A stretch of DNA of 64,000 nucleotides from Xanthomonas indica. Its GTDB lineage: Bacteria; Pseudomonadota; Gammaproteobacteria; Xanthomonadales; Xanthomonadaceae. The notes below the pieces were generated by a model. It searched no databases. It was not told the origin of the DNA and saw only the letters and a list, made by a program, of their open reading frames with translations. Location: positions 666,501-730,500 of the forward strand of contig NZ_CP131914.1 of assembly GCF_040529045.1 (NCBI RefSeq). Direction: 5' to 3'. Each line of letters begins with the position of its first letter. Within the stretch, counting starts at the first letter, position 1. Shown in pieces: positions 4,697 through 59,222 of the stretch. The position numbers were made by a program, and so were the translations under genes.

Positions 4697-4765
4697 GTTT
4701 TTCTGGCCGACGTCCGCGTTTCGCGGCATGCTTGGCGTCCCTTCGGCCGCCCGGACCCGCCCGCC

Positions 4766-5788
4766 ATGACCGCTTCCCGCATCGTCTGCTTCGGCGAACT
4801 GTTGCTGCGCCTGGGCGCGCCCGGCCACGAACGGCTGCTGCAGACGCCGCGGCTGGAGGTGCAGGTGGGTGGTGCCGAGGCCAACGTGGGCGTGGCGCTG
4901 GCGCATTTCGGCCACACCGTCGCCGTGGTCAGCGTGCTGCCGGACAACCCGCTGGGCCAGGCCGCGGCCGGCGAGTTGCGCCGGCATGGCGTGGACACCA
5001 GCGGCGTGCGCTTCGTGCCCGGGCGCATGGGCCTGTACTTCCTCAGCACCGGCGCCGGGCACCGGCCCAGCGAGGTCACCTACGACCGCGCCGGCTCGGC
5101 CTTCGCGCTGGATGCGGGCGACCGGCACGACTGGCCGACGCTGCTGCGCGGCGCGCAGTGGCTGCACCTGTCCGGGGTGACCCCGGCGCTGGGCGAACGT
5201 GGCGCGGCGGCGGCGCTGGCCGCGGCAACTGCGGCCCGCGCGGCCGGGGTGCGGGTGTCGTTCGACGGCAACTACCGGCCCAAGCTGTGGGAGGCCTGGC
5301 ACGGCGATGCGCCGGGCATCCTGCGGCAGCTGCTGGCCCAGGCCGACGTGCTGTTCGCCGACTATCGCGACCTGGAGGTGGTCCTGGGTCACCGCTACCC
5401 GCAGGACAGCGTGCAGGCGCGGGTGGAGGCCGGTGCGCGCGACGCCTTCGCCGCGTTCCCGCAGCTGCAGGCGATGGCCTGCACCCAGCGCGTGGCGCAC
5501 AGCGTGGACCGGCACAGCCTGGGCGCGATGCTGCTGCGCCGCGATGGCAGCGTCGCGCAGGCGCCGGCCGAAGAGCTGAGCGGCATCGTCGACCGCATCG
5601 GCGGCGGCGACGCCTTCGCCGCCGGCGTGCTGCACGGGTTGATCCAGGGCTGGGACGACACCGCCACGATCCGCTTCGGCCTGGCCGCCGGCTGCCTCAA
5701 GCACACGCTGCCCGGCGACGTGCTGGCGCTGAGCGAAGCCGAGGTGCAGGCCTGCGTGGGGGCGACGCGGTTCGATGTGAGGCGGTGA
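4766..5788 (+). CDS. kdgK: PfkB-family sugar kinase, probably 2-dehydro-3-deoxygluconokinase
   Basis: The 340-residue product belongs to the ribokinase/PfkB family. The N-terminal signature GGAEANVGVALAHFG lies near residues 35-49. The C-terminal ATP/anion-hole motif GGGDAFAAGVLHG carries catalytic Asp near residue 282. The pattern VCFGELLLRLGAPG followed by GGAEANVG is typical of KdgK, which phosphorylates 2-keto-3-deoxygluconate from uronate (pectin, alginate) breakdown for entry to the Entner-Doudoroff route. Other PfkB sugar kinases cannot be excluded. It is transcribed away from the TonB receptor and shares its operator sequence, which links the kinase to the imported sugar. Confidence 0.8.
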   Translation: MTASRIVCFGELLLRLGAPGHERLLQTPRLEVQVGGAEANVGVALAHFGHTVAVVSVLPDNPLGQAAAGELRRHGVDTSGVRFVPGRMGLYFLSTGAGHRPSEVTYDRAGSAFALDAGDRHDWPTLLRGAQWLHLSGVTPALGERGAAAALAAATAARAAGVRVSFDGNYRPKLWEAWHGDAPGILRQLLAQADVLFADYRDLEVVLGHRYPQDSVQARVEAGARDAFAAFPQLQAMACTQRVAHSVDRHSLGAMLLRRDGSVAQAPAEELSGIVDRIGGGDAFAAGVLHGLIQGWDDTATIRFGLAAGCLKHTLPGDVLALSEAEVQACVGATRFDVRR

Positions 5789-5793
5789 AGGGC

Positions 5794-5830
5794 CGGGATT
5801 CGGGAATGGGGATTGGGGATTGGCAAAGGC
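5794..5830. repeat. G-rich GGGATT-type repeat at a convergent gene end
   Basis: Variants of GGGATTCGGGAATGGGGATT run immediately after the kinase stop codon. The reverse complement of the same repeat lies at 6488-6520, just before the fabV stop. The pair brackets the REP array. The same arrangement recurs at 30326-30454. Confidence 0.6.
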
Positions 5831-5869
5831 GCTAGTGCTGCGGGTTTTGCGGCGCGGGGTGGCGGCTTG

Positions 5870-6243
5870 GTATGGAACCGACCTCGTTCCCGGCGCGGTT
5901 CGGTCAATTCCAGCATCGCGGCTTCGGTTGTCGCGGCTGAAGCCGCTCCTACGGGAGTGCAGTTGCCGCGGGGATGGCTGGTGCACTTGTGGGAGGGACT
6001 TCAGTCCCGACGCGACTCGGTCGACGCACGCATTGCCGCTTCGCTTGTCGCGGCTGAAGCCGCTCCTACGGGAAAGCAGCTGTCGCGGGATGGCTGGTGC
6101 ATTTGTGGGAGGGACTTTAGTCCCGACGCGATTCGGTCAATTCACGCATCACGGCTTCGGTTGTCGCGGCTGAAGCCGCTCCTACGGGTGCGGCGTGTGC
6201 TGTCGGCGGCGTGCGCTCTCGTAGGAGCGGCTTCAGCCGCGAC
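5870..6243. repeat. Tandem composite REP array
   Basis: This noncoding stretch between kdgK and fabV holds two kinds of hairpin in alternation. Type A (core GCGGCTGAAGCCGCTCC) occurs at 5930, 6047 and 6163, with a period of 116-117 bp, and inverted at 6221. Type B (GTGGGAGGGACTTCAGTCCC) occurs at 5989 and 6105. The sequences between them are also repeated (for example GATGGCTGGTGCA), so the unit is about 117 bp and present in two to three diverging copies. No gene is seen between 5789 and 6520. Confidence 0.88.
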
Positions 6244-6423
6244 AAGCCATCGAACATCGGCAATGCGCGGTGCGAGCGCAATGGCGCACATGTCGCTGCT
6301 TCGGTATTGCGGGCAGCGCCGCTAGTCCACTGTATGGCCTGGCCCGCCGCCACTGCACAGCCCTCGCCTGTCTCGCCCATGGAGGCCGCTCATCCCGGCG
6401 CTGCCATCGCTTCGGCTGCCATC

Positions 6424-6457
6424 GAAAAAGAAAACGGCCGACATCGCTGCCGGCCGC
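6424..6457 (-). terminator. Rho-independent terminator of fabV
   Basis: Read on the minus strand, a GCGGCCG/CGGCCG stem with a 10-base loop is followed by TTTTCTTTTT, 64 bp after the fabV stop codon. Confidence 0.7.
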
Positions 6458-6487
6458 ATGTTCTCTCCAGGATCCGGGATCACAACG

Positions 6488-6520
6488 ACTCCCGAATCCC
6501 CACTCCCCAATCCCCGCTCC
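6488..6520. repeat. Inverted partner of the G-rich GGGATT repeat
   Basis: CCCGAATCCCCACTCCCC and adjoining AATCCCCGCTCC are the reverse complement type of the repeat at 5794-5830 and abut the fabV stop codon. Confidence 0.6.
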
Positions 6521-7726
6521 TCAGAGCTCCACGCAATCGAACTTGACGTCTGGGTCGACGTCGGCGTCGTAGTCCACGTCCTGGCGTTCAAAGCCGAACA
6601 GCTTGAGGAACTGATGCTTGTAGCCGGCGTAGTCGGTGAGCTGGAACAGGTTCTCGGTGGTCACCTGCGGCCACAGCGCCTTGCAGGCGTTCTGCACGTC
6701 GTCGCGCAGTTCCCAGTCATCCAGGCGCAGGCGGTTCTCGTCGTCGGTGGCCGCCGGCTGGCCGTCCTCGCGGTACAGGCGCTCGCGGAACAGGCGGTCG
6801 GCCTGTTCGATGGTGCCTTCGTGCAGGCCCTTTTCCTTCATGATCTTGTAGACCATGGAGATGTACAGCGGCATCACCGGGATCGCCGCGCTGGCCTGGG
6901 TGACCACCGACTTCAGCACCGCCACGTTGGCCGTGCCACCGTGCGGCTGCAGGCGGGCGTGCAGGCGCTGCGCGGTCTGGTCGAGGTCGACCTTGGCCTT
7001 GCCCAGCGCGCCGTGCCAGTAGATCGGCCAGGTGATCTCGGTGCCGATGTAGCTGAAGGCGACGGTGCGTGCGCCCGGCGCGAGCACGCCGGCCGCGTCC
7101 AGCGCATCGATCCACAGTTCCCAGTCCTGCCCGCCCATCACGGTGACGGTGTCTTCGATCTCCTGCTCGGTGGCCGGCTCGATCGAGGCCTCGATGATCG
7201 CGTCCTTGTTGGTGTCGATGGCGGTGGCGGTGTAGGTCTGGCCGATCGGCTTGAGCGCCGAGCGCTTCACTTCGCCGGTGCTCGGCAGCTTGCGCACCGG
7301 CGAGGCCAGCGAATACACCACCAGGTCGACCTGGCCGCCCATCTCGGTCTTGATCAGTTCGATGACCTTGGCGCGCGCTTCGTCGGAGAACGCGTCGCCG
7401 TTGATCGACTTGCTGTACAGGCCGTCGGCCTTGGCCTGCTTGTCGAAGGCGGCGGCGTTGTACCAACCGGCGGTGCCGGCCTTCTTCTCGCTGCCGGGCT
7501 TCTCGAAGAACACGCCGAGGGTGGCGGCGCCGAAGCCGAACGCGGCGGTGATGCGCGAGGCCAGGCCGTAGCCGCTGGACGCGCCGATCACCAGCACGTT
7601 CTTTGGCCCATCGTGGCGCACGCCGCGCGCGCGCGTGGCGGCGATCTGCTCGAGCACGTTGCGCTCGCAGCCGAGCGGATGCGTGGTGGTGCAGATGAAA
7701 CCGCGGACTTTCGGATGGATGATCAA
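6521..7726 (-). CDS. fabV: Enoyl-ACP reductase FabV (trans-2-enoyl reductase)
   Basis: The 401-residue product matches FabV along its length. It starts [17 protein letters not shown], has the Rossmann nucleotide motif [15 protein letters not shown] near residues 45-60, and the active-site region [16 protein letters not shown] containing the Tyr-x8-Lys pair. FabV performs the last reduction of fatty-acid elongation, using NADH, and is naturally insensitive to triclosan compared with FabI. Length equals the usual 390-405 residues. It is monocistronic, convergent with kdgK, and followed by a good terminator. Confidence 0.95.
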
Positions 7727-45361: not shown

Positions 45362-46462
45362 TTAGAGACGCAGCGGCATCACCACATGGCGCGAGCGGGC
45401 GCTGCTGGCTTCGCGCACCAGCGCCGACGAGTTGGCGTCGCGCAGCTGGATCACCACGAACTCCTCGCGCAGCGCGGACAACGCATCGAGCAGGTAGTTC
45501 ACGTTGAAGCCGATCGCCAGGTCGCTGACCTTGGTGTCCGCTTCCACTTCTTCCTGCGCTTCTTCCTGCTCGGGGTTGTGCGCGCTGATCTTCAGCTGGC
45601 CCGGGGAGACTTCCACGCGCACGCCGCGGTACTTCTCGTTGGACAGGATCGCCGCACGCTGCAGCGCCGCGCGCAGGGTTTCGCGATCCAGCTTGACCTC
45701 GCGGTCGGCACCGATCGGGATCACGGCTTCATAGTCGGGGAAGCGACCGTCGATCAGCTTGGAGGTGAAGGTGACATCGTCGCGCTTGACCCGCACGTGC
45801 GCGCGACCGACTTCCAGTTCGACTTCGCGCTCGCCGCCTTCCAGCAGGCGCTGCAGCTCGGTCACGCCCTTGCGCGGCACGATGATCTGGCGCTTGGCGC
45901 CGCCAGCGTTCTCCAGCTCGGTCTCGCACAGCGCCAAGCGATGGCCATCGGTGGCCACGCAGCGCAGGGTCTGGTCGCGCAGGTCGAACAGCAGGCCGTT
46001 GAGGTAATAGCGCACGTCCTGCTGGGCCATCGCGAACGCGGTGCGCTCGATCAGTTCCTTCAACGCCGCTTCCGGCACCACCACGCGCTCGGTGGCTTCG
46101 ACTTCGTCGACCGACGGGAAGTCGTTGGCAGGCAGCGTGGCCAGGGTGAAGCGGCTGCGCCCGGCCTGCACGGTGATCTTGTCGCCGGACTGGGACACGG
46201 TGACCTTGCTGCCGTCGGGCAGGGCACGCACGATCTCGAACAGCTTGCGCGCCGGGATGGTGGTTTCGCCATCCTGGGCATCGTCGACCGCAATGCGCGA
46301 GACCATTTCCACTTCCAGATCGGTACCGGTGAGCGACAGCTGGCCGCCCTGCACCTGCACCAGGAAGTTGGCCAGAACCGGCAAGGTCTGGCGGCGTTCG
46401 ACCACATTGACGACTTGCGCCAATGGCTTGAGGAAGGCTTCGCGCTGCAGTGTGAAACGCAT
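45362..46462 (-). CDS. dnaN: DNA polymerase III beta sliding clamp
   Basis: The 366-residue product has the three-domain clamp structure. It starts MRFTLQREAFLKPLAQVVNVVERRQTLPVL and ends with the conserved VVMPLRL that forms part of the partner-binding pocket. It tethers polymerase to DNA. The length is standard. It is separated from dnaA by the oriC segment and followed by a terminator. Confidence 0.97.
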   Translation of the reverse strand: MRFTLQREAFLKPLAQVVNVVERRQTLPVLANFLVQVQGGQLSLTGTDLEVEMVSRIAVDDAQDGETTIPARKLFEIVRALPDGSKVTVSQSGDKITVQAGRSRFTLATLPANDFPSVDEVEATERVVVPEAALKELIERTAFAMAQQDVRYYLNGLLFDLRDQTLRCVATDGHRLALCETELENAGGAKRQIIVPRKGVTELQRLLEGGEREVELEVGRAHVRVKRDDVTFTSKLIDGRFPDYEAVIPIGADREVKLDRETLRAALQRAAILSNEKYRGVRVEVSPGQLKISAHNPEQEEAQEEVEADTKVSDLAIGFNVNYLLDALSALREEFVVIQLRDANSSALVREASSARSRHVVMPLRL

Positions 46463-46625
46463 GTGGTTCCGTGCCCCTATGCTTTAAAAGATGTGGAATA
46501 AATCAAAAGCTTGGTGGTGATGGTAGAGCGAAAATCGGTGAAAATGTAGCTCAAGCCACTGAAAACAAAGAATTTTTGGCGCCACCAATCCCGTGTACTA
46601 CTGTCCCGGAACTGGTGGGGAAACC

Positions 46626-46634
46626 TGTGGATAG
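46626..46634 (-). promoter_or_regulatory. DnaA box (reverse)
   Basis: TGTGGATAG is the reverse complement of CTATCCACA, one base from the TTATCCACA consensus. Confidence 0.75.
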
Positions 46635-46660
46635 TTTTGCCGTCGCCGCCGCGTCGCGCT

Positions 46661-46669
46661 TTATCCACA
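46661..46669 (+). promoter_or_regulatory. DnaA box (perfect)
   Basis: TTATCCACA exactly matches the high-affinity DnaA box. It is in opposite orientation to the box 27 bp away. Confidence 0.85.
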
Positions 46670-46736
46670 GTTTCTCCCGGATTTGTCGCGAAGTCATGCA
46701 CCGATTTATCCGGCGTCCTCCGCACCGGCCGCCGCA

Positions 46737-48077
46737 CTACTCGCTGAGCTTGCGGATCAGCTTGTCCCAGTCTTCTCGGAGCTTGCCGTCGGTCTCCATC
46801 AAGTGCTTGATCTGGCGGCAGGCGTGCAGCACGGTGGTGTGGTCGCGCCCGGCGAACGCATCGCCGATTTCCGGCAGGCTGTGTTCGGTCAGTTCCTTGG
46901 TCAGCGCCATCGCCACCTGCCGCGGCCGCGCCAGCGAACGCGTGCGGCGCTTGGACAGCAGGTCCTTGATCTGCAGGCCGTAGTAGTCGGCCACGGTCTT
47001 CTGGATGTTGGGGATGCCGATCGCCTGCTGCTGTGCGCGCAGCAGGTCGCGCAGGGTTTCCTGGGCGAATTCGGTGGTGATCGCGCGGCCGGTGAAGTTG
47101 GCGCGGGCGGCCAGCGTATTGAGCGCGCCTTCCAGGTCGCGCACGTTCGAGCGCATCTTCTTGGCGATCAGGAACGCCACGTCGTCGGGGATCTCCGCGC
47201 CGCGCTCGCGCGCCTTGGCCAGCACGATCGCCGCGCGGGTCTCGAAATCGGGCGGATCGATCGCCACCGACAGGCCCCAGGCCAGGCGCGACTTCAGCCG
47301 CGGCTCCAGGCCCTCGACCTCGCGCGGATAGCGGTCGCAGGTCAGGATGATCTGCTGGCGGCCGTCGAACAGCGCGTTGAAGGTGTGGAAGAACTCTTCC
47401 TGGGTGCGGTCCTTGCCGGCGAAGAACTGGATGTCGTCGATCAGCAGCGCGTCCACCTGCTGGAACTGGCGCTTGAACTGGTCCATGGTCTTGTCCTGCA
47501 GCGCACGGATCATCGCGCTGAAGAACTGTTCCGAGCGCAGGTACATCACCCGCGCGTTCGGATTCTGCTCGCGCATGGCGTTGCCGGCGGCGAACATCAG
47601 GTGGGTCTTGCCCAGGCCGGTGCCGCCGTACAGCAGCAGCGGGTTGTGCGCACGGTCGCCGGGCTTCTGCGCGGCCTGCACCGCCGCGGCCAGGCCGAGC
47701 TGGTTGCTGCGGCCTTCGACGAAGTTGGCGAAGGTGTAGTGCGAATCGAGATTGCCGGCGAACGGCTCCAGCAACGGCGGCGCCGGCGTGCGCGCGGCGG
47801 CGGTCTCGCTGGGCGGGGCGGCGACCGGTTCCGGCGCGCGCGGGCGCGAGCCGACCTGCAGCAGCACCTCGCCGCTGCCGGCGAAGTAGGTCAGCAGCTC
47901 GCGGATGCGCGGCAGGTAGCGCTCGCGCACCTGCTCGACGATGAAGGCGTTCGGGGCGTACAGCACCATGCTGTTGTCATGGCGCTGTTCGGCTTGCAGC
48001 GGTTTCAACCAAGTGTGAACGTCCTCGGCTGGAAATTCGGCTTCCAGACGTTCCAGGCAACGGGGCCAAGCATCCAT
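46737..48077 (-). CDS. dnaA: Chromosomal replication initiator DnaA
   Basis: The 446-residue product has domain I ([24 protein letters not shown]), a short variable linker, the AAA+ domain (Walker [19 protein letters not shown]; Walker [23 protein letters not shown]), and the DNA-binding domain IV ([16 protein letters not shown] near residue 415). It binds DnaA boxes and opens the origin. ATG 48077 (MDAWPR) is the family start; an in-frame ATG at 48107 would add ten residues. Confidence 0.97.
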
Positions 48078-48207
48078 CAGATCTAAATTCGTCGATAGAC
48101 CGGGCATGAAGGGCGCGCTCGGGCGCGGCGCATTCGGCCGGTGGGAGAGGAAAGCGGATGGATCAGACTACCACCGGCGCGCAGGGTCGGGAATGGTTTT
48201 CCCACGG

Positions 48208-48973: not shown

Positions 48974-50704
48974 ATGAACCAGACCCGCCTTTTCCTGATT
49001 TTCGCCTGGCTGATGGTCGCGGCGCTGTTGTGGATGGAGTGGAACAAGGAACACGCGCCGAACGCCACTGCGACAACGGTCGCGGCGGCGACCACGGTGC
49101 CGCCGGCGCAGGACGCCGACGCCGGCGCCACCCATGCGCCGGCCGTGCCGCAGGCCACGGTGCCCGGCACCGCGCCGGCCAGCACCACGCCCGAGACCGC
49201 CGCGGCCAGCGCTGCGCCGCGCGTCACCGTCACCACCGACGTGCTGCGCCTGACCCTGGATGGCCGCAGCGTGTTCGACGCCGACCTGCTGCTGTTCCCG
49301 CAGACCAAGCAGCCCGGCAGCCCGCCGGTGCAACTGCTGACCGAGGACCCGGCGCATCCGTACACCGCCATCAGCGGCTGGGTGGGCGAGCACAACTCGC
49401 CATCGCCGGGTCCGGGCGGCTTCCGTCCCGAGCAGCCGGGCAAGGACTACGTGCTGGCCAAGGGCCAGGACAGCCTGCAGGTGCCGTTCGTGTGGAACGG
49501 CCCGGATGGCATCAGCATCCGCCGCGTCTACACCCTGCAGCGCGGCCACTACGCCGTGCAGGTGCACGACGAGGTCATCAACCACGGCAGCAAGCCGTGG
49601 CAGGGCTATGTGTTCCGCAAGCTGAGCCGGGTGCCGACCATCGTCAGCCGCGGCATGACCAACCCGGATTCCTTCAGCTTCAACGGCGCCACCTGGTTCA
49701 GCCCGGCCGATGGCTACCAGCGCCGCGCGTTCAAGGATTATCTGGACGACGGCCCGCTGAACCAGACCATTAAGGGTGGCTGGATCGCACTGCTGCAGCA
49801 TCACTTCTTCACCAGCTGGATTCCTCAGGCTGATCAGGAATCGCTGTTCGTGCTGTCCAATGACGGTCCGCGGCACGTGATCGAAACACGCGGTCCGAGT
49901 TTCACCGTGGCGCCGGGCGCCAGTGCCAGCACCGAAGCGCGGCTGTGGGTGGGCCCGAAGCTGGTCAATCAGATTGCCAAGGAGCAGGTGAAGGGGCTGG
50001 ACCGCGTGGTCGATTACAGCCGTTTCACCTTGCCGGCGATGCTGGGCCAAGGCCTGTTCTGGATCCTGAGTCATTTGCACAGCCTGATAGGCAACTGGGG
50101 CTGGTCAATCGTCGGCCTGGTGGTCCTGCTGAAGCTGATGCTGTATCCGCTGTCGGCCGCGCAATACAAGAGCATGGCCAAGATGCGCAAGTTCCAGCCG
50201 CGCATCCAGCAGCTCAAGGAGCGCTACGGCGACGACAAGCAGAAGTTCCAGACGGCGATGATGGAGCTGTACAAGAAGGAGAAGATCAACCCGATGGGCG
50301 GCTGCCTGCCGGTGCTGATCCAGATGCCGATCTTCTTCGCGCTGTACTGGGTGCTGGTGGAGTCGGTGGAACTGCGCCAGGCGCCGTGGTTCGCCTGGAT
50401 CCAGGACCTGACCGCGCGCGATCCGTACTTCATCCTGCCGGTGATCAACGTGGCGGTGATGTGGCTGACGCAGAAGCTGACGCCGTCGCCGGGCATGGAT
50501 CCGGTGCAGGCCAAGATGATGCAGTTCATGCCGCTGGTGTTCGGCGTGATGATGGCCTTCGTGCCGTCCGGCCTGGTGCTGTACTGGGTCACCAACGGTT
50601 CGCTGGGCCTGTTGCAGCAGTGGTGGATGACCAAGCGCCACGGCGAACCGGCCACCGCCGGCGGTGGCGGCAGCGGCAAGCCGCCGGCCAAGGCCAAGAA
50701 GTAA
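48974..50704 (+). CDS. yidC: Membrane protein insertase YidC
   Basis: The 576-residue product is the Gram-negative YidC: one N-terminal membrane helix ([14 protein letters not shown]), a large periplasmic domain (about 50-350), and a cluster of five membrane helices, with [21 protein letters not shown] and [21 protein letters not shown]. It inserts and folds inner-membrane proteins with Sec or alone. It ends with a basic Pro/Lys tail. A perfect 11-bp hairpin follows the stop. Confidence 0.97.
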
Positions 50705-50710
50705 ACCCGA

Positions 50711-50736
50711 CAACGCCCGCCCTCCGGCGGGCGTTG
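50711..50736 (+). terminator. Hairpin terminator after yidC
   Basis: CAACGCCCGCC and GGCGGGCGTTG pair perfectly around CTCC, 7 bp after the stop. It has no T tract, so termination may be partial. Confidence 0.65.
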
Positions 50737-50802
50737 CGCATGTGGCCGGGGAAGGCGCCGGCGCGTGCGGTCCCGCACCGCCTTGCTCGCGAGTCCGTGG
50801 TC

Positions 50803-53544
50803 ATGCGCAAGCGCCGTCGTCCGTTGTCGCCGTCCGTGGCCGTGATCGGCCTGCTCGCGTTGGTCCTGGCCGCCTGCCAGCGTTCGCCCGCCGGCAGCGA
50901 GACAACGGCCGCCAAGCCCGCATCGCCAGAGACGGCGATCGCCATCCCCGGCTCGCCGGCGTTGCAGACCCAGGCCACGGCGCTGCTGCGAGGCCTGCAG
51001 GCGCAACTGGCGGCGCAGCGCAAGATCATCGTGCTGCTGGCCGACGAGGCCAGGCAGTCGCCCGCCGACCGGCAGACCTCCAGCAGCGTCGGCCAGCAAC
51101 TGTTCCACGAGGGCCTGGAGCGCCGCGAGGTGCTTGCCAGGCAATTCGATGCGCTTCTGGCGCTGCCGGACCCGCAGCGCTTCGCCGCGATCGGCAGCCT
51201 GCTGGACTACGTCGAATCGGCGCCGGACCTGTACGACGCCGACCGCCTGGCGTTCCGCGAGATTCTCGCCGACTGGCAGCTGCGCATCGGCAAGGATTCC
51301 TCGCTGCCGGCGATCAAGCTGCACCAGCGCATCGGCGAGGACCTGGACGCGCTCGACGAGATCGAACGCACCTACAACCGCGAGATCACCGTGATCTTCA
51401 GCCGCTTCGACCGCACCCGCGCGATCGTGCAGAAGCGCGAGAAGTGGGAGGACTACGTCGCCCACCTGGGCACGCTGTACACGCGCGAGGCGATCCTGCG
51501 CGACTACGGCGTGATCACCCCGTATCCGATGTCGATGCAGGACAGCGACCGCGAGGTGTTCGGCCGCGACCTGCCGCCGAAGACCGTGGTGCTGAGTTTC
51601 GACGACGGCCCGCATCGCGCGTACACCGACGAGATCGTCGCCATCCTCAAGCGCTACGACGTGCCGGCCACGTTCTTCGAAGTCGGCCGCAACCTGGGCA
51701 AGCTGGAGCCCGATGGCAAGGTCGACTTGTCGCCGTTGGCCAGCGTCAGCCGTAGCCTGATGGAGCAGGGCTACACCGTCGGCAACCACAGCCTGACCCA
51801 CGCGCAACTATCCAAGGAAACCGGCGCCGCGTTGCGCAGCCAGATCCTCGACACTGACCGCATGCTGCGCGCGGTCGACGCCAAGCGCGCGCCGCTGTTC
51901 CGCTTCCCCTATGGCGCGCGCAATGCCGAGGGCATGCAGATCCTCGGCGAGGCCGGGCTGAAGTCGGTGATGTGGAACGTGGATTCGCTGGACTGGGCCG
52001 ACCCGGTGCCGGAGTCGATCGTGCAGCGCGTGCTCGAGCAGGTCGGCCGCGAGCAGCGCGGCATCCTGCTGTTCCACGATATCCACGAACGTACGGTCAA
52101 GGCGCTGCCGCAGATCCTGGACCGGCTCAGCGCCGACGGCTACCAGTTCGCCGGCTGGAACGGGCGCGACTTCAGCGTCGCGCGCGCGGCCAGCAACGCC
52201 GCCGCGCCGGCGGTGACCAGCGGCTACGACAAGTCGTGGGCCATCGTCATCGGCATCGACGACTACGCGCACTGGCCCAAGCTGCAGTACGCGGCCAACG
52301 ATGCGCAGGCCATCGCGCAGACGCTCACCGGCAGCTTCGGCTTCCCGTCGTCGCAGGTGATCGTGCTGAAGAACCAGGAAGCGACCCGCAACAACATCCT
52401 GGCCGCCTTCCACGATCGGCTCGCGCACGGCGGCGTGGGCAAGAACGATCGCGTGTTCGTGTTCTTCGCCGGCCACGGCGCCACCCGCAAGCTGGCCTCC
52501 GGGCGCGACCTCGGCTACATCGTGCCCGCCGATTCGGATCCGGCGCAGTTCGCCACCGACGCGATTCCGATGACCGAGATCCAGGACATCGCCGAGAGCT
52601 TGGAAGCCAAGCACGTGCTGTTCGTGATGGACGCGTGCTACAGCGGCCTGGGCCTGACCCGCGGCGGCGGCACCAGCGCCTACCTGCGCGAGAACGCGCG
52701 GCGCATCGCCCGGCAGATGCTCACCGCCGGCGGCGCCGACCAGCAGGTGGCCGACAGCGGCCCCAACGGCCATTCGGTGTTCACTTGGGTGCTGTTGCAG
52801 GCGCTGTCGGGCAAGGCTGACCTCAACGGCGACGGCCTGATCACCGGCACCGAGCTGGCCGCCTACGTGGCGCCGGCGGTGTCGAGCATCTCGCAGCAGA
52901 CGCCCGCGTTCGGCAGCCTGCCCGGTTCGCAGGGCGGCGAATTCGTGCTGCAGGTGCCGGAGGGCGAGGAGTTCCTCACCGCCAGTACGCAGCAGCTGTC
53001 CTCGGCGGCGATCGCGATGAACGACCGCGTCGATGCGGCCGCGCCGGCGTCGACCGCGACGCCGCACGCCGGCGCCAGCAGCGCCACCGCGCCGGCCACC
53101 CCGGCCAAGCCGGCGGTGGTGGTCAAGGACCTGCAGGGCGGCGAGCGGCCGCTGGCGGTGCCGGCCGCAGCCGGCCCGGTGTCCGACCGGCAGCGTGCGC
53201 AGCGCGCCAACGACCGCGGCCTGCAGCTGTACAAGGAGAAGCGCTACGACGAGGCCGAAGCGCAGTTCACCGAGGCGCTGAAGCTGCGCCCGGACTTTGC
53301 GCTGGCGGCCAACAACCTGGGCTTCATCTACTATCGCCAGGGCAAGTACGCGCAGGCCGTGCGCTGGCTGGAGAACACGCTGAAGATCGATCCTTCGCGC
53401 GCGGTGGCCTATGTCAACCTGGGCGACGCCTACCGCCAGCTGGGCGATGCCGCCAAGGCCAAGCACGCCTTCCAGACCTACCTGGAACTGCAACCCAACG
53501 GTGCGTCGGCCGCCTACGTCCGCGGCCAGTTGCAGACGCTGTAA
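50803..53544 (+). CDS. NodB polysaccharide deacetylase - caspase-like - TPR lipoprotein
   Basis: The 913-residue product has, in order: a lipobox (LVLAAC, Cys25); a helical N-terminal region; a NodB deacetylase at about 255-440 with FDDGP (266-270), NHSLTH (His329/His333), RFPYG (367-371) and FHD (His425); a caspase-like (C14) domain at about 476-735 with His558 in FFAGHG and Cys612 in MDACYSG; an EF-hand-like [13 protein letters not shown]; an Ala/Pro/Thr linker; and TPRs at about 797-910. All key deacetylase and caspase residues are present, so both domains may be active. It is predicted to be membrane-anchored and periplasmic, modifying cell-wall or surface glycans and cutting a protein partner. 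The function is not known. It lies between yidC and mnmE. Confidence 0.9.
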
Positions 53545-53575
53545 TTCGCCACGCTACCGACCTGCCGCTCTCGCC

Positions 53576-54919
53576 ATGCCGTCTTCCGCCACCGACACCA
53601 TCGCCGCCATCGCCACCGCCCCTGGTGCGGGCGGTGTCGGCGTGGTGCGCGTGTCGGGTCCGGCGGCGGCGGCCGTTGCCGCCGGTCTCGGTCTTGGCGG
53701 ATTGGTGCCGCGCAGCGCCCGCTACGCGCGTTTCCGCGACGCGCACGGCGAGGTCGTGGACGACGGCATCGCCCTGTGGTTCCCGGCGCCGCGCAGCTTC
53801 ACCGGCGAGGACGTGCTGGAACTGCAGGCGCATGGCAGCCCGGTGCTGTTGCGGCACCTGGTGGCGCGCTGCTGCGAACTCGGCGCGCGGCCGGCGCGCC
53901 CGGGCGAGTTCAGCGAGCGCGCCTTCCTCAACCGCAAGCTCGACCTGGCCCAGGCCGAGGCGATCGCCGACCTGATCGCCGCGGGCGACCTGCGCGCGGC
54001 ACGTGCGGCGCGGCGTTCGCTGGACGGTGTGTTCTCGCGCCGCGTCGACGACCTGGCCGAACAGCTGATCCGCCTGCGCATCCACATCGAAGCGGCGATC
54101 GATTTCGCCGACGAGGCGCTGGACACCCTCGGCGGCGAACAGGTCCGTGCCGGCCTGGCGCAGGCGCGCGCGGATCTGGCGCAGCTACGCGTCGACGCCG
54201 AACGCGGCCGGCGCCTGCGCGATGGCCTGCATGCGGTGCTGGTCGGCCCGCCCAACGCCGGCAAGAGTTCCCTGCTCAACGCATTGGCCGGCAGCGACCG
54301 CGCCATCGTCACCGACATCGCCGGCACCACCCGCGACACCTTGCACGAGACCGTGCGCCTGGATGGCGTGGAACTGACCCTGGTCGACACCGCCGGCCTG
54401 CGCGAGGGCGGCGATGCGATCGAGCGCGAAGGCATGCGCCGCGCGCGCCAGGAACTGCAGCGCGCCGACCTGGCGCTGATCGTGCTCGATGCGCGCCAGG
54501 CCGAGGCCGGCCACGCGGCGATCGCCGATGCCATCGCCGAGGTGCCGCAGCGCCTGTGGATCCACAACAAGAGCGACCTGCTGGCTGCGGTGCCCGCCGC
54601 CAGCGCCGAGCGCGTCTACGTCTCCGCCGCCACCGGCAGCGGCCTGGAGCAGTTGCATGCGCAGTTGCGCGCGATCGCCGGCGCGGCGGCCGGCGAGGGC
54701 AGCGATGGCGAGTTCTCCGCACGCGCGCGCCACGTCGATGCGTTGCAGCGCGCCGCCGCCCATGCCGACGCGGCCGCCGCCGAACTGCAGCACGAACGCC
54801 TGGAACTGGCCGCCGAGGAACTGCGCCTGGCGCATGCCGCGCTCGGCGAGATCGTCGGCACGCTCAGCGCCGACGACCTGCTCGGGCGGATCTTCTCCAG
54901 CTTCTGCATCGGCAAGTAG
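53576..54919 (+). CDS. mnmE: tRNA modification GTPase MnmE (TrmE)
   Basis: The 447-residue product starts with the formyl-THF binding domain ([22 protein letters not shown]), has the GTPase G1 motif [16 protein letters not shown] near 220, G2 GTTRD, G3 DTAGLRE, G4 NKSD, and ends with the invariant FCIGK. With MnmG it adds the carboxymethylaminomethyl group at U34 of certain tRNAs. ATG 53576 gives the standard N-terminus. Confidence 0.97.
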
Positions 54920-57621: not shown

Positions 57622-58818
57622 ATGTTCGACGCGATCCTCGACTTCCTCGGCAACGGCCTGCTCGGCGTCGGCTGGTGGGGCATGCTGGCCGTGCTGCTGC
57701 TGTTCACCCAGCTCACCATCTTCGCGGTGACCTTGTATCTGCACCGCAGCCAGGCGCACCGCGGCGTGGATTTCCATCCGCTGCTGTCGCACTTCTTCCG
57801 CTTCTGGACCTGGTTCACCACCTCGATGATCACCAAGGAGTGGGTGGCGATCCATCGCAAGCACCACGCCAAGGTGGAGACCGAGGAAGATCCGCACAGC
57901 CCGCAGACCAAGGGCATCGCCCGCGTGTTCTGGCGTGGCGTGGAGCTGTATCGCGAAGCGCGCACCCAGCGCGGCGACATCGAGCAGTACGGCAAGGGCG
58001 CGCCGGACGACTGGATCGAGCGGCACCTGTACACCCCGTACGCGAACCTGGGGCCGGTGGCGCTGTTCGTGGTCAACTTCGCGCTGTTCGGCCTGCCCGG
58101 CATCGCGCTGTGGGCGCTGCAGATGGCCTGGATCCCGTTCTGGGCCGCCGGCGTGATCAACGGCCTGGGCCACTGGTGGGGTTACCGCAACTTCGAGTCG
58201 GCCGACACCTCGACCAATCTGACGCCGTGGGCGCTGTGGATCGGCGGCGAAGAACTGCACAACAACCACCATGCCTTCCCGAGCTCGGCGCGCTTCTCGA
58301 TGCGCCGCTGGGAACTGGACATCGGCTGGATCGCGATCCGTGCGCTGGCCGCCCTGCGCCTGGCCAAGATCCTGCGCGTGGCGCCGACCCTGGACGTGCG
58401 CCCGAACATCGCCGTGCCCGACGCCGACACCCTGCGCGCGCTGCTGTCGCATCGCTTCCAGGCGATGACCGATTACCAGCGCAACGTGTTCAAGCCTGCG
58501 CTCAAGGAAGAAGCCGCGCAGGCCGGCGCCAAGCTGCGCAAGCTGCTGCCGCGGCGCCTGCGCAAGGGTCTGGTCGACGATGGCCGCTGGCTCAAGCCCG
58601 ACGCCCGCGCACAGCTGCAGCACTGGGTGGCGCAGCGTCCGCGCATGCGCACCCTGGTCGAGCACCGCGCGCGTCTGGCTGCCCTGCTGGAGGCGCGTAC
58701 CCATGACGCCAGCGAACGTCTCAAGCACCTGCAGGCCTGGTGCCACGACGCCGAAGCCAGCGGCATCGCCGCGCTACAGGCCTACGCGGCGCGGCTGAAG
58801 GGCTACGCCCTGGCATGA
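57622..58818 (+). CDS. Acyl-CoA/acyl-lipid delta-9 fatty acid desaturase
   Basis: The 398-residue protein has four to five membrane helices and the three histidine boxes of membrane desaturases: HRSQAH (about 40), HRKHH (about 77), and HNNHHAFP (about 215). It inserts a double bond in fatty acyl chains. Beyond residue 270 it has an unusually long soluble, helical tail rich in Arg/Ala (LRKLLPRRLRKGLV and on). GGAGC precedes ATG 57622. A hairpin follows the stop. Confidence 0.93.
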   Translation: MFDAILDFLGNGLLGVGWWGMLAVLLLFTQLTIFAVTLYLHRSQAHRGVDFHPLLSHFFRFWTWFTTSMITKEWVAIHRKHHAKVETEEDPHSPQTKGIARVFWRGVELYREARTQRGDIEQYGKGAPDDWIERHLYTPYANLGPVALFVVNFALFGLPGIALWALQMAWIPFWAAGVINGLGHWWGYRNFESADTSTNLTPWALWIGGEELHNNHHAFPSSARFSMRRWELDIGWIAIRALAALRLAKILRVAPTLDVRPNIAVPDADTLRALLSHRFQAMTDYQRNVFKPALKEEAAQAGAKLRKLLPRRLRKGLVDDGRWLKPDARAQLQHWVAQRPRMRTLVEHRARLAALLEARTHDASERLKHLQAWCHDAEASGIAALQAYAARLKGYALA

Positions 58819-58846
58819 GCCGCGGCGGACCGCCTGCCCCGCCACA

Positions 58847-58871
58847 CGAACGCCGCCTTGCGCGGCGTTCG
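58847..58871 (+). terminator. Hairpin after the desaturase
   Basis: CGAACGCCGC and GCGGCGTTCG pair perfectly around CTTGC, 29 bp after the stop. The EF-hand gene start follows 7 bp later. Confidence 0.65.
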
Positions 58872-58877
58872 TCGTTG

Positions 58878-59222
58878 ATGGCGTGGCGGATGCTGAGCAT
58901 CGCCTGCGCCCTGATCGCTGTTGGCATCGCCAACGCCCAGGCGCAGGCGATCGACAGCACGGCCAGCTACCTGCAGCGCATGGACCGCGACGGCGACGGC
59001 CGTGTCAGCCTGGACGAATACCTGGCCTGGATGAGCTACGCCTTCGACGCGCGCGACCGCGACCACGACGGCGTGCTCAGCCCGGCCGAACTGCCCGGCG
59101 GCCGCGGCCCGCCGATCACCCGCGCGCAACACCTCGCCACCCTGACCGCCCGCTTCCGCAAGCAGGACACCAACGGTGACGGCTACCTCAGCGCGCGGGA
59201 ACTCGCGGCGCCGCCGCAGTGA
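58878..59222 (+). CDS. Exported EF-hand protein
   Basis: The 114-residue product has a signal peptide (MAWRMLSIACALIAVGIANAQA) and three EF-hand-like calcium loops: DRDGDGRVSLDEY, DRDHDGVLSPAEL, and DTNGDGYLSAREL. It is a small predicted periplasmic calcium-binding protein of the calerythrin-like group. An in-frame ATG at 58815 overlaps the desaturase stop (ATGA) and would add 21 residues; the start after the hairpin is preferred since it begins the signal peptide. Confidence 0.82.
   Translation: MAWRMLSIACALIAVGIANAQAQAIDSTASYLQRMDRDGDGRVSLDEYLAWMSYAFDARDRDHDGVLSPAELPGGRGPPITRAQHLATLTARFRKQDTNGDGYLSARELAAPPQ

Follow-up and report, generated by a model that had tools for sequence, protein, structure and literature searches.

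In a 64,000-nucleotide stretch of Xanthomonas indica DNA (NCBI RefSeq assembly GCF_040529045.1, contig NZ_CP131914.1, positions 666,501 to 730,500 of the forward strand; called the window below), one gene encodes a 913-residue protein that joins a NodB/CE4 polysaccharide deacetylase domain to a caspase-like protease domain (C14) and to C-terminal tetratricopeptide repeats (TPRs). This domain content is well supported. The protein may work outside the cytoplasm as a wall-glycan deacetylase to which an Arg/Lys-specific protease and a docking TPR domain are joined, a tentative mechanism to which, taken as a whole, we assign a probability of about 0.42. A first, sequence-only reading of the window knew of no function described for this architecture. 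It was, however, published in 2012 under the name Xanthomonas-type metacaspase and put forward as a candidate death protease of bacteria, with a tentative link to cell death (Asplund-Samuelsson et al., PMC3501461).

In the available passages of that paper, the type comprises PF01522, a metacaspase domain and one to three TPRs, with some members differing in the TPRs or being devoid of them. Its hosts are Xanthomonas, Xylella, Stenotrophomonas and two Acidobacteria, the catalytic dyad is intact in all 17 sequences, and trmE adjoins the gene. The family is tied there to the caspase-like activity and programmed cell death reported for X. campestris pv. glycines, and functional work is called for. 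The window protein displays the same PF01522–C14–TPR order, the His–Cys dyad and the trmE (mnmE) neighbour, and no architectural difference from the type as these passages give it. Relative to them, the present analysis adds betaproteobacterial copies, NodB-only relatives, an unannotated helical region, a p10-like part recognized by its fold, an EF-hand-type loop, the anchor types and a pocket prediction. An enzyme test of a deacetylase–caspase protein was not named in the literature titles surveyed, a survey that did not extend to most of the texts or to the original Xanthomonas caspase reports.

Domain anatomy and constraint

The sequence-only reading described a predicted lipoprotein with NodB motifs, a His558/Cys612 pair, an EF-hand-like loop and C-terminal TPRs, all of which were recovered by translation and Pfam. 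Polysacc_deac_1 matches residues 256–388 (E 1.1e-26), Peptidase_C14 residues 478–673 (E 3e-22) and TPR_2 three stretches (E 2.8e-19). The NodB motifs are F266-DDGP, N328-HSLTH, R367-FPYG and F424-HD, and the dyad residues lie within FAGHGA (H558) and DACYSG (C612). The top NCBIfam match, TIGR02764 (PdaB; E 7.7e-34), scored 117 bits, well short of its cut-off (237), and since none of the 25 NCBIfam families among the matches listed reached its cut-off, the protein receives no equivalog name. A PADLOC search returned the model 'caspase' (E 2.2e-22) and two weak matches to other models. Fold matches were obtained from the structure model for both the NodB and the caspase-like part. The deacetylases PgdA of S. 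pneumoniae (2c1g/2c1i) and Bc1960 of B. cereus (4l1g) share the fold and the catalytic motifs of the NodB domain; unlike the window protein, these matches show no protease or TPR part.

Conservation was assessed with 56 loci (L006–L061) of the 58 found in a contig scan, two TPR-only matches (L062, L063) having been omitted. Near-full-length relatives are ~52–98% identical to the window protein over the best segment. The alignment contains 52 rows, consisting of the window and 51 loci, from which L042, L049, L055 and L060 (split over frames) and L061 (contig end) were excluded. H329, H333, H558, C612, D500 and D610 are identical in all 52 rows, D267 and D268 in 51 rows with one gap. Mean identity to the window protein is highest in the p10-like part (0.86), followed by p20 (0.77), NodB (0.74), TPR (0.72), the helical region (0.58) and the linker (0.46). 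Within the variable linker, residues 772–780 (window 53116-53142; VVVKDLQGG) form a short conserved motif, which includes V774 and in which L777 and G779 occur in 52/52 rows and K775 in 48/52.

The ratio of nonsynonymous to synonymous substitution rates (dN/dS), determined by NG86 for only three pairs (window versus L006, L007 and L008), was ~0.013, 0.045 and 0.11 for the caspase part, ~0.037, 0.096 and 0.13 for NodB, ~0.07, 0.07 and 0.10 for the TPRs, and ~0.10, 0.29 and 0.49 for the helical region. The caspase part has the lowest value in two pairs, the TPRs a slightly lower one in the third. The low values of the NodB and caspase parts indicate that both enzymes are under selection. The reading frame is open over the match in 48 of the 56 loci. 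An intact N-terminal part is missing in L017, L051 and L052. In L052 (Xanthomonas nasturtii), ORF 4707-6932 has a lipobox N-terminus and matches the window protein from residue 260 only; the helical region appears to have been deleted in frame. The gene of L060 (Xanthomonas bromi) is decayed, with four best pieces across three frames from which the NodB stretch 221–455 is missing.

The solved proteases nearest in sequence to the caspase-like domain are metacaspases. Yeast metacaspase-1 (4f6o) and the paracaspase MALT1 (4i1r) share with it the His–Cys dyad, acidic residues at the presumed pocket and the caspase fold over residues 472–719; unlike them, the window protein is predicted to be extracytoplasmic and combines the protease with a deacetylase and TPRs in one chain. 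The p10-like part emerges from the fold alignment, which reaches residue 719, whereas the Pfam C14 match stops at 673 (profile position 196 of 233). In the sequence alignment D500 corresponds to a metacaspase Asp and D610 to the Asp of DSC, positions that we take to be specificity-pocket residues, and an acidic pocket is presumed there. The metacaspase kinship together with the acidic residues at both positions leads to the prediction of cleavage after Arg or Lys. Caspases sensu stricto differ at this point, because two positions before the catalytic Cys, presumably the place of their Gln161, Asp610 is found in 52/52 rows. Gln161 (caspase-3 numbering) is part of the basic pocket of caspases, according to the available passages of PMC5756287.

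The EF-hand-type loop D673–E684 carries acidic residues or Asn at places 1, 3, 5 and 12 (D673, N675, D677, E684), which are invariant in 52/52 rows. The pattern fits a metal site, and from it calcium binding is inferred. In metacaspases, by contrast, a calcium site is the 280-loop (available passages of PMC5756287). A C14 match (E ≤ 1e-12) occurs in 17 of 94 genomes of the class sample. Among the other C14 loci, 22 of 25 could be aligned; by eye, the loop is similar in 3, partial in 3 and absent in 16. It is a subgroup trait among C14 domains.

The N-terminus conforms to the bacterial lipoprotein pattern, LAAC with the Cys after a hydrophobic stretch, and lipidation of C25 is predicted. The exact start is left open because a second in-frame ATG occurs upstream at 50740; the start at 50803 yields a compact signal peptide with LAAC. 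Anchors were typed by a simple N-terminal sequence pattern. A lipobox is present in the window protein and in 19 of 24 xanthomonad rows; three are transmembrane-like and two unclear, some of these being near-lipobox. Among the 27 non-xanthomonad rows, 19 have a transmembrane-like N-terminus, five a lipobox and three an unclear one. A membrane tether thus appears to be kept, by pattern, while the anchor type changes, which supports an extracytoplasmic place; we infer a periplasmic location. The earlier view that two intact-looking enzyme domains lie outside the cytoplasm agrees with the motifs, the conservation, the folds and the anchor pattern.

The helical region between anchor and NodB has no Pfam family and no clear relative among the solved structures searched. 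It was modelled as a helical bundle (predicted local distance difference test, pLDDT, 80.6; predicted template modelling score, pTM, 0.68). Used alone as a query (E ≤ 1e-4), it matched 4 of 299 genomes of the phylum, three with the full gene and a fourth (G068) with a remnant-like gene. In Acidobacteriota (the phylum of genome G638), seven frames contain the helical region and NodB and end after NodB (query end 453–479), six as ORFs of 436–493 residues and one inside a longer frame; an eighth candidate (L061/L071) is cut by a contig end. One genome, G742, holds a short and a full-length copy. Neither a caspase nor a TPR match was found in four 14-kb neighbourhoods of short forms. The short forms therefore mark the helical region and NodB as a single unit that can be separated from the protease part, whether by gain or by loss of the latter being left open.

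Distribution and trees

A search of the window genome itself gave a single such gene; its four other matches are short TPR or deacetylase stretches of 34–42% identity. For the sampling of whole genomes, the family profile was applied with a threshold of E ≤ 1e-60. It was positive in 35 of 247 genomes of the Xanthomonadaceae, the family of the window, and in 10 of 13 among the same-genus genomes listed. Another family of the same class (f6) contributed 29 of 299 genomes, 27 with near-full-length and two with NodB-like matches only. Seven of 398 genomes of the phylum sample were positive, including G068, in which the gene is split over frames and contains stops, and 10 of 247 in Acidobacteriota, where three copies are full length and the others short or cut. 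Occurrence in betaproteobacteria is patchy, e.g. in Massilia, Polaromonas and Variovorax. Viral contigs contained no DNA matching the search patterns. The supposition that the protein might be lineage-wide in xanthomonads holds only in part, given the sampled counts and the copies outside the family.

Trees were computed by a quick method from 50 rows for the helical–NodB part and 43 rows for the caspase part, the latter without the seven short forms; 19 near-duplicate, fragmentary or incomplete rows had been dropped. A xanthomonad clade and a Massilia/Telluria clade were recovered with both halves, as would be expected if the helical–NodB and caspase parts had travelled together within these clades. 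The protein of L020, an 'Azonexus' contig assembled from a metagenome, is nested within the xanthomonad clade; its gene lacks yidC and mnmE, and the neighbours resemble dprA, def and fmt by eye. Either transfer or misbinning would explain its placement.

Proposed mechanism and alternatives

According to the proposed mechanism, the helical region and NodB would act as an N-acetylglucosamine deacetylase of the peptidoglycan or chitin type, kept near the wall by a lipid or transmembrane anchor; the substrate is inferred from the domain. The caspase-like domain would be an Arg/Lys-specific cysteine protease of the metacaspase/paracaspase type with the EF-hand-type metal loop in its p10-like half, and the TPR domain would dock a partner or substrate protein. 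Upon envelope stress the protease might cut the docked protein or its own chain, and the deacetylase would modify the wall and thereby alter the action of wall hydrolases. Guesses in this scheme are the trigger, the partner of the TPRs and any coupling of the two activities. Proteolytic control of a glycan system, suggested by the sequence-only reading, is in this sense possible. A model for the NodB role may be SddA of E. coli, likened here by description, a Gram-negative periplasmic wall-glycan deacetylase for which, unlike the window protein, no protease is mentioned in the available passages (PMC12440217).

Several observations weigh against this mechanism. It is built on sequence and predicted structure, and the acidic pocket is read from an alignment rather than from a complex. 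Structure prediction, proposed earlier as a check, yielded both folds, but the full-chain model (mean pLDDT 70.2, pTM 0.40) does not place the domains reliably, and the loop 613–651 following Cys612 has a pLDDT below 50. The short relatives possess the deacetylase unit without the protease, and a conserved partner gene across genera was not seen in the neighbourhoods compared. The lack of a match in 212 of the 247 sampled genomes of the window's family, the broken xanthomonad copies and the other sampled counts indicate a gene that is patchy and dispensable and whose range is wider than the xanthomonads. L083 and the acidobacterial copies L068 and L069 are placed differently in the two trees, whose inner forks are open in 13 and 14 cases. 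Finally, the gene is split over frames in four loci. A frameshift separating the domains had been named as a refutation of the architecture; the breaks, seen in 4/56 loci, resemble decay of single copies or draft errors rather than an arrangement in two cistrons, and any single break may be an error of the draft assembly.

Caspase activity and cell death in Xanthomonas were reportedly first described by Gautam, Sharma, Raju and Wadhawan. The protein might be the executioner of this programmed cell death and the source of the DEVD-cleaving, caspase-3-like activity, perhaps after self-cleavage to a 55-kDa form, which we regard as quite unlikely although it has support in print. The available passages of PMC3501461 describe a homologue of the family in X. 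campestris pv. glycines (GI 88792532), a gene that combines deacetylase and caspase; antibodies to caspase and PARP cross-reacted with its product, and mutants deficient in caspase displayed no cell death. DEVD activity is given for X. campestris pv. campestris 8004 in the passages of PMC4006831. The words metacaspase and deacetylase are absent from the main text of PMC4006831. Arguing against an executioner is the predicted pocket, with D610 where caspases have Gln and with metacaspases as sequence kin; the other characterised C14 members, as far as the excerpted sources go, cut after Arg or Lys. The predicted extracytoplasmic place conflicts with one of the reported markers, DNA damage (PMC4006831, in part), which is cytoplasmic, and the sizes, 55 versus ~100 kDa, do not match, as PMC3501461 concedes. 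Moreover, E. coli has no metacaspases according to the passages of PMC3501461, yet a passage of PMC4006831 and a reference title in PMC4933709 point to a caspase-3-like protein being activated in this species; a DEVD signal therefore does not necessarily stem from a C14 enzyme. If the protein is truly periplasmic and cuts after basic residues, it is an unlikely source of the Xanthomonas DEVD activity and may instead be a protease that controls the cell wall. A reading that goes further, and that we consider rather doubtful as a whole, is an envelope-resident metacaspase in which periplasmic Arg/Lys cutting under metal control and a wall deacetylase would switch remodelling under stress, the caspase-3-like activity would stem from another protein, and the helical region, as a new domain, would define a deacetylase subfamily that either acquired the caspase and TPR parts or lost them. 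The anatomy makes the link to cell death testable; it sharpens the question without answering it.

The protease might also act mainly on itself, cutting after conserved Arg residues in the 620–637 loop or at Lys775 and thereby activating the protease or freeing a part of the chain from the membrane. Consistent with such self-processing, which we think unlikely, are the identity of R620, R634 and R637 in 52/52 rows and of R629 in 50/52, the position of K775 inside the variable linker, the low confidence of the modelled loop, and the autocatalysis of the orthocaspase MaOC1 cited in a passage of PMC8283722; the conserved Arg residues may, however, be structural, and in our own alignment reading an Arg lies near the R637 place in several other C14 domains. 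It is very unlikely that NodB is catalytically silent or mainly a glycan-binding tether, with the protease as the sole working enzyme: inactive deacetylase-like lipoproteins are reported from Bacillus anthracis (PMC4505593, in part) and the caspase part evolves more slowly than NodB, but the catalytic motif residues checked are conserved, NodB has a low dN/dS, and the short relatives retain the helical–NodB unit alone. A function linked to translation is hardly credible. It is prompted by mnmE, which in the window starts 31 bp after the stop, and by the apparent translation function given to the operon in PMC3501461 (passages). With yidC and mnmE of the window as queries, these neighbours were present at 28/28 xanthomonad loci (at L009 mnmE only, the contig ending upstream), and mnmE follows within 0–31 bp in 10; in 15 further loci, however, the two genes are 139–289 bp apart and in another one 549 bp, with two broken copies left out of the count because their last frame stops early. 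Neither neighbour was found at 28 non-xanthomonad or three Acidobacteriota loci, some with short flanks, and the protein is predicted to be extracytoplasmic.

Genomic neighbourhood and coordinates

The gene lies between yidC and mnmE, where the sequence-only reading had located it, among neighbours that look housekeeping-like by eye (Table 1). The mnmE distances make co-transcription plausible for the window gene and those of its close relatives, but the pairing is a mark of one family only.

Table 1. Features of the window gene, its product and the adjoining genes (coordinates in the window)
Feature	Coordinates	Strand	Residues noted	Basis
NodB–C14–TPR membrane-anchored protein gene, 913 aa	50803..53544 (incl. 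stop)	+		translation, Pfam, relatives
Signal peptide with lipobox LAAC	50803..50877	+	predicted lipidated Cys25	sequence pattern
Helical region, residues 51–250	50953..51552	+		without Pfam family or clear solved relative
NodB/CE4 domain, residues 251–460	51553..52182	+	D267, D268, H329, H333, R367, D394, D397, H425	Pfam, conservation, fold
Caspase-like domain, residues 472–719, p20 and p10-like part	52216..52959	+	dyad H558/C612; acidic D500, D610	Pfam, conservation, fold
EF-hand-type loop, residues 673–684	52819..52854	+		alignment
Variable linker, residues 721–794	52963..53184	+		alignment
C-terminal TPR domain, residues 795–913	53185..53541	+		Pfam, fold
yidC, upstream neighbour	48974..50704	+		translation, homology query
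mnmE (trmE), downstream neighbour	~53576..54919	+		listed ORF begins upstream of that start

A simple scan of 50500–53700 revealed no consensus promoter or terminator. By eye, a GC-rich inverted repeat directly follows the yidC stop (50705-50740); it was missed by the terminator scan because it lacks a T-run. Our own reading of the translations identifies dnaN and dnaA on the minus strand at 45362-48107, which places the gene near the origin region of the chromosome. Farther downstream, the window ORF 58740-59222 contains two stretches that look EF-hand-like by eye.
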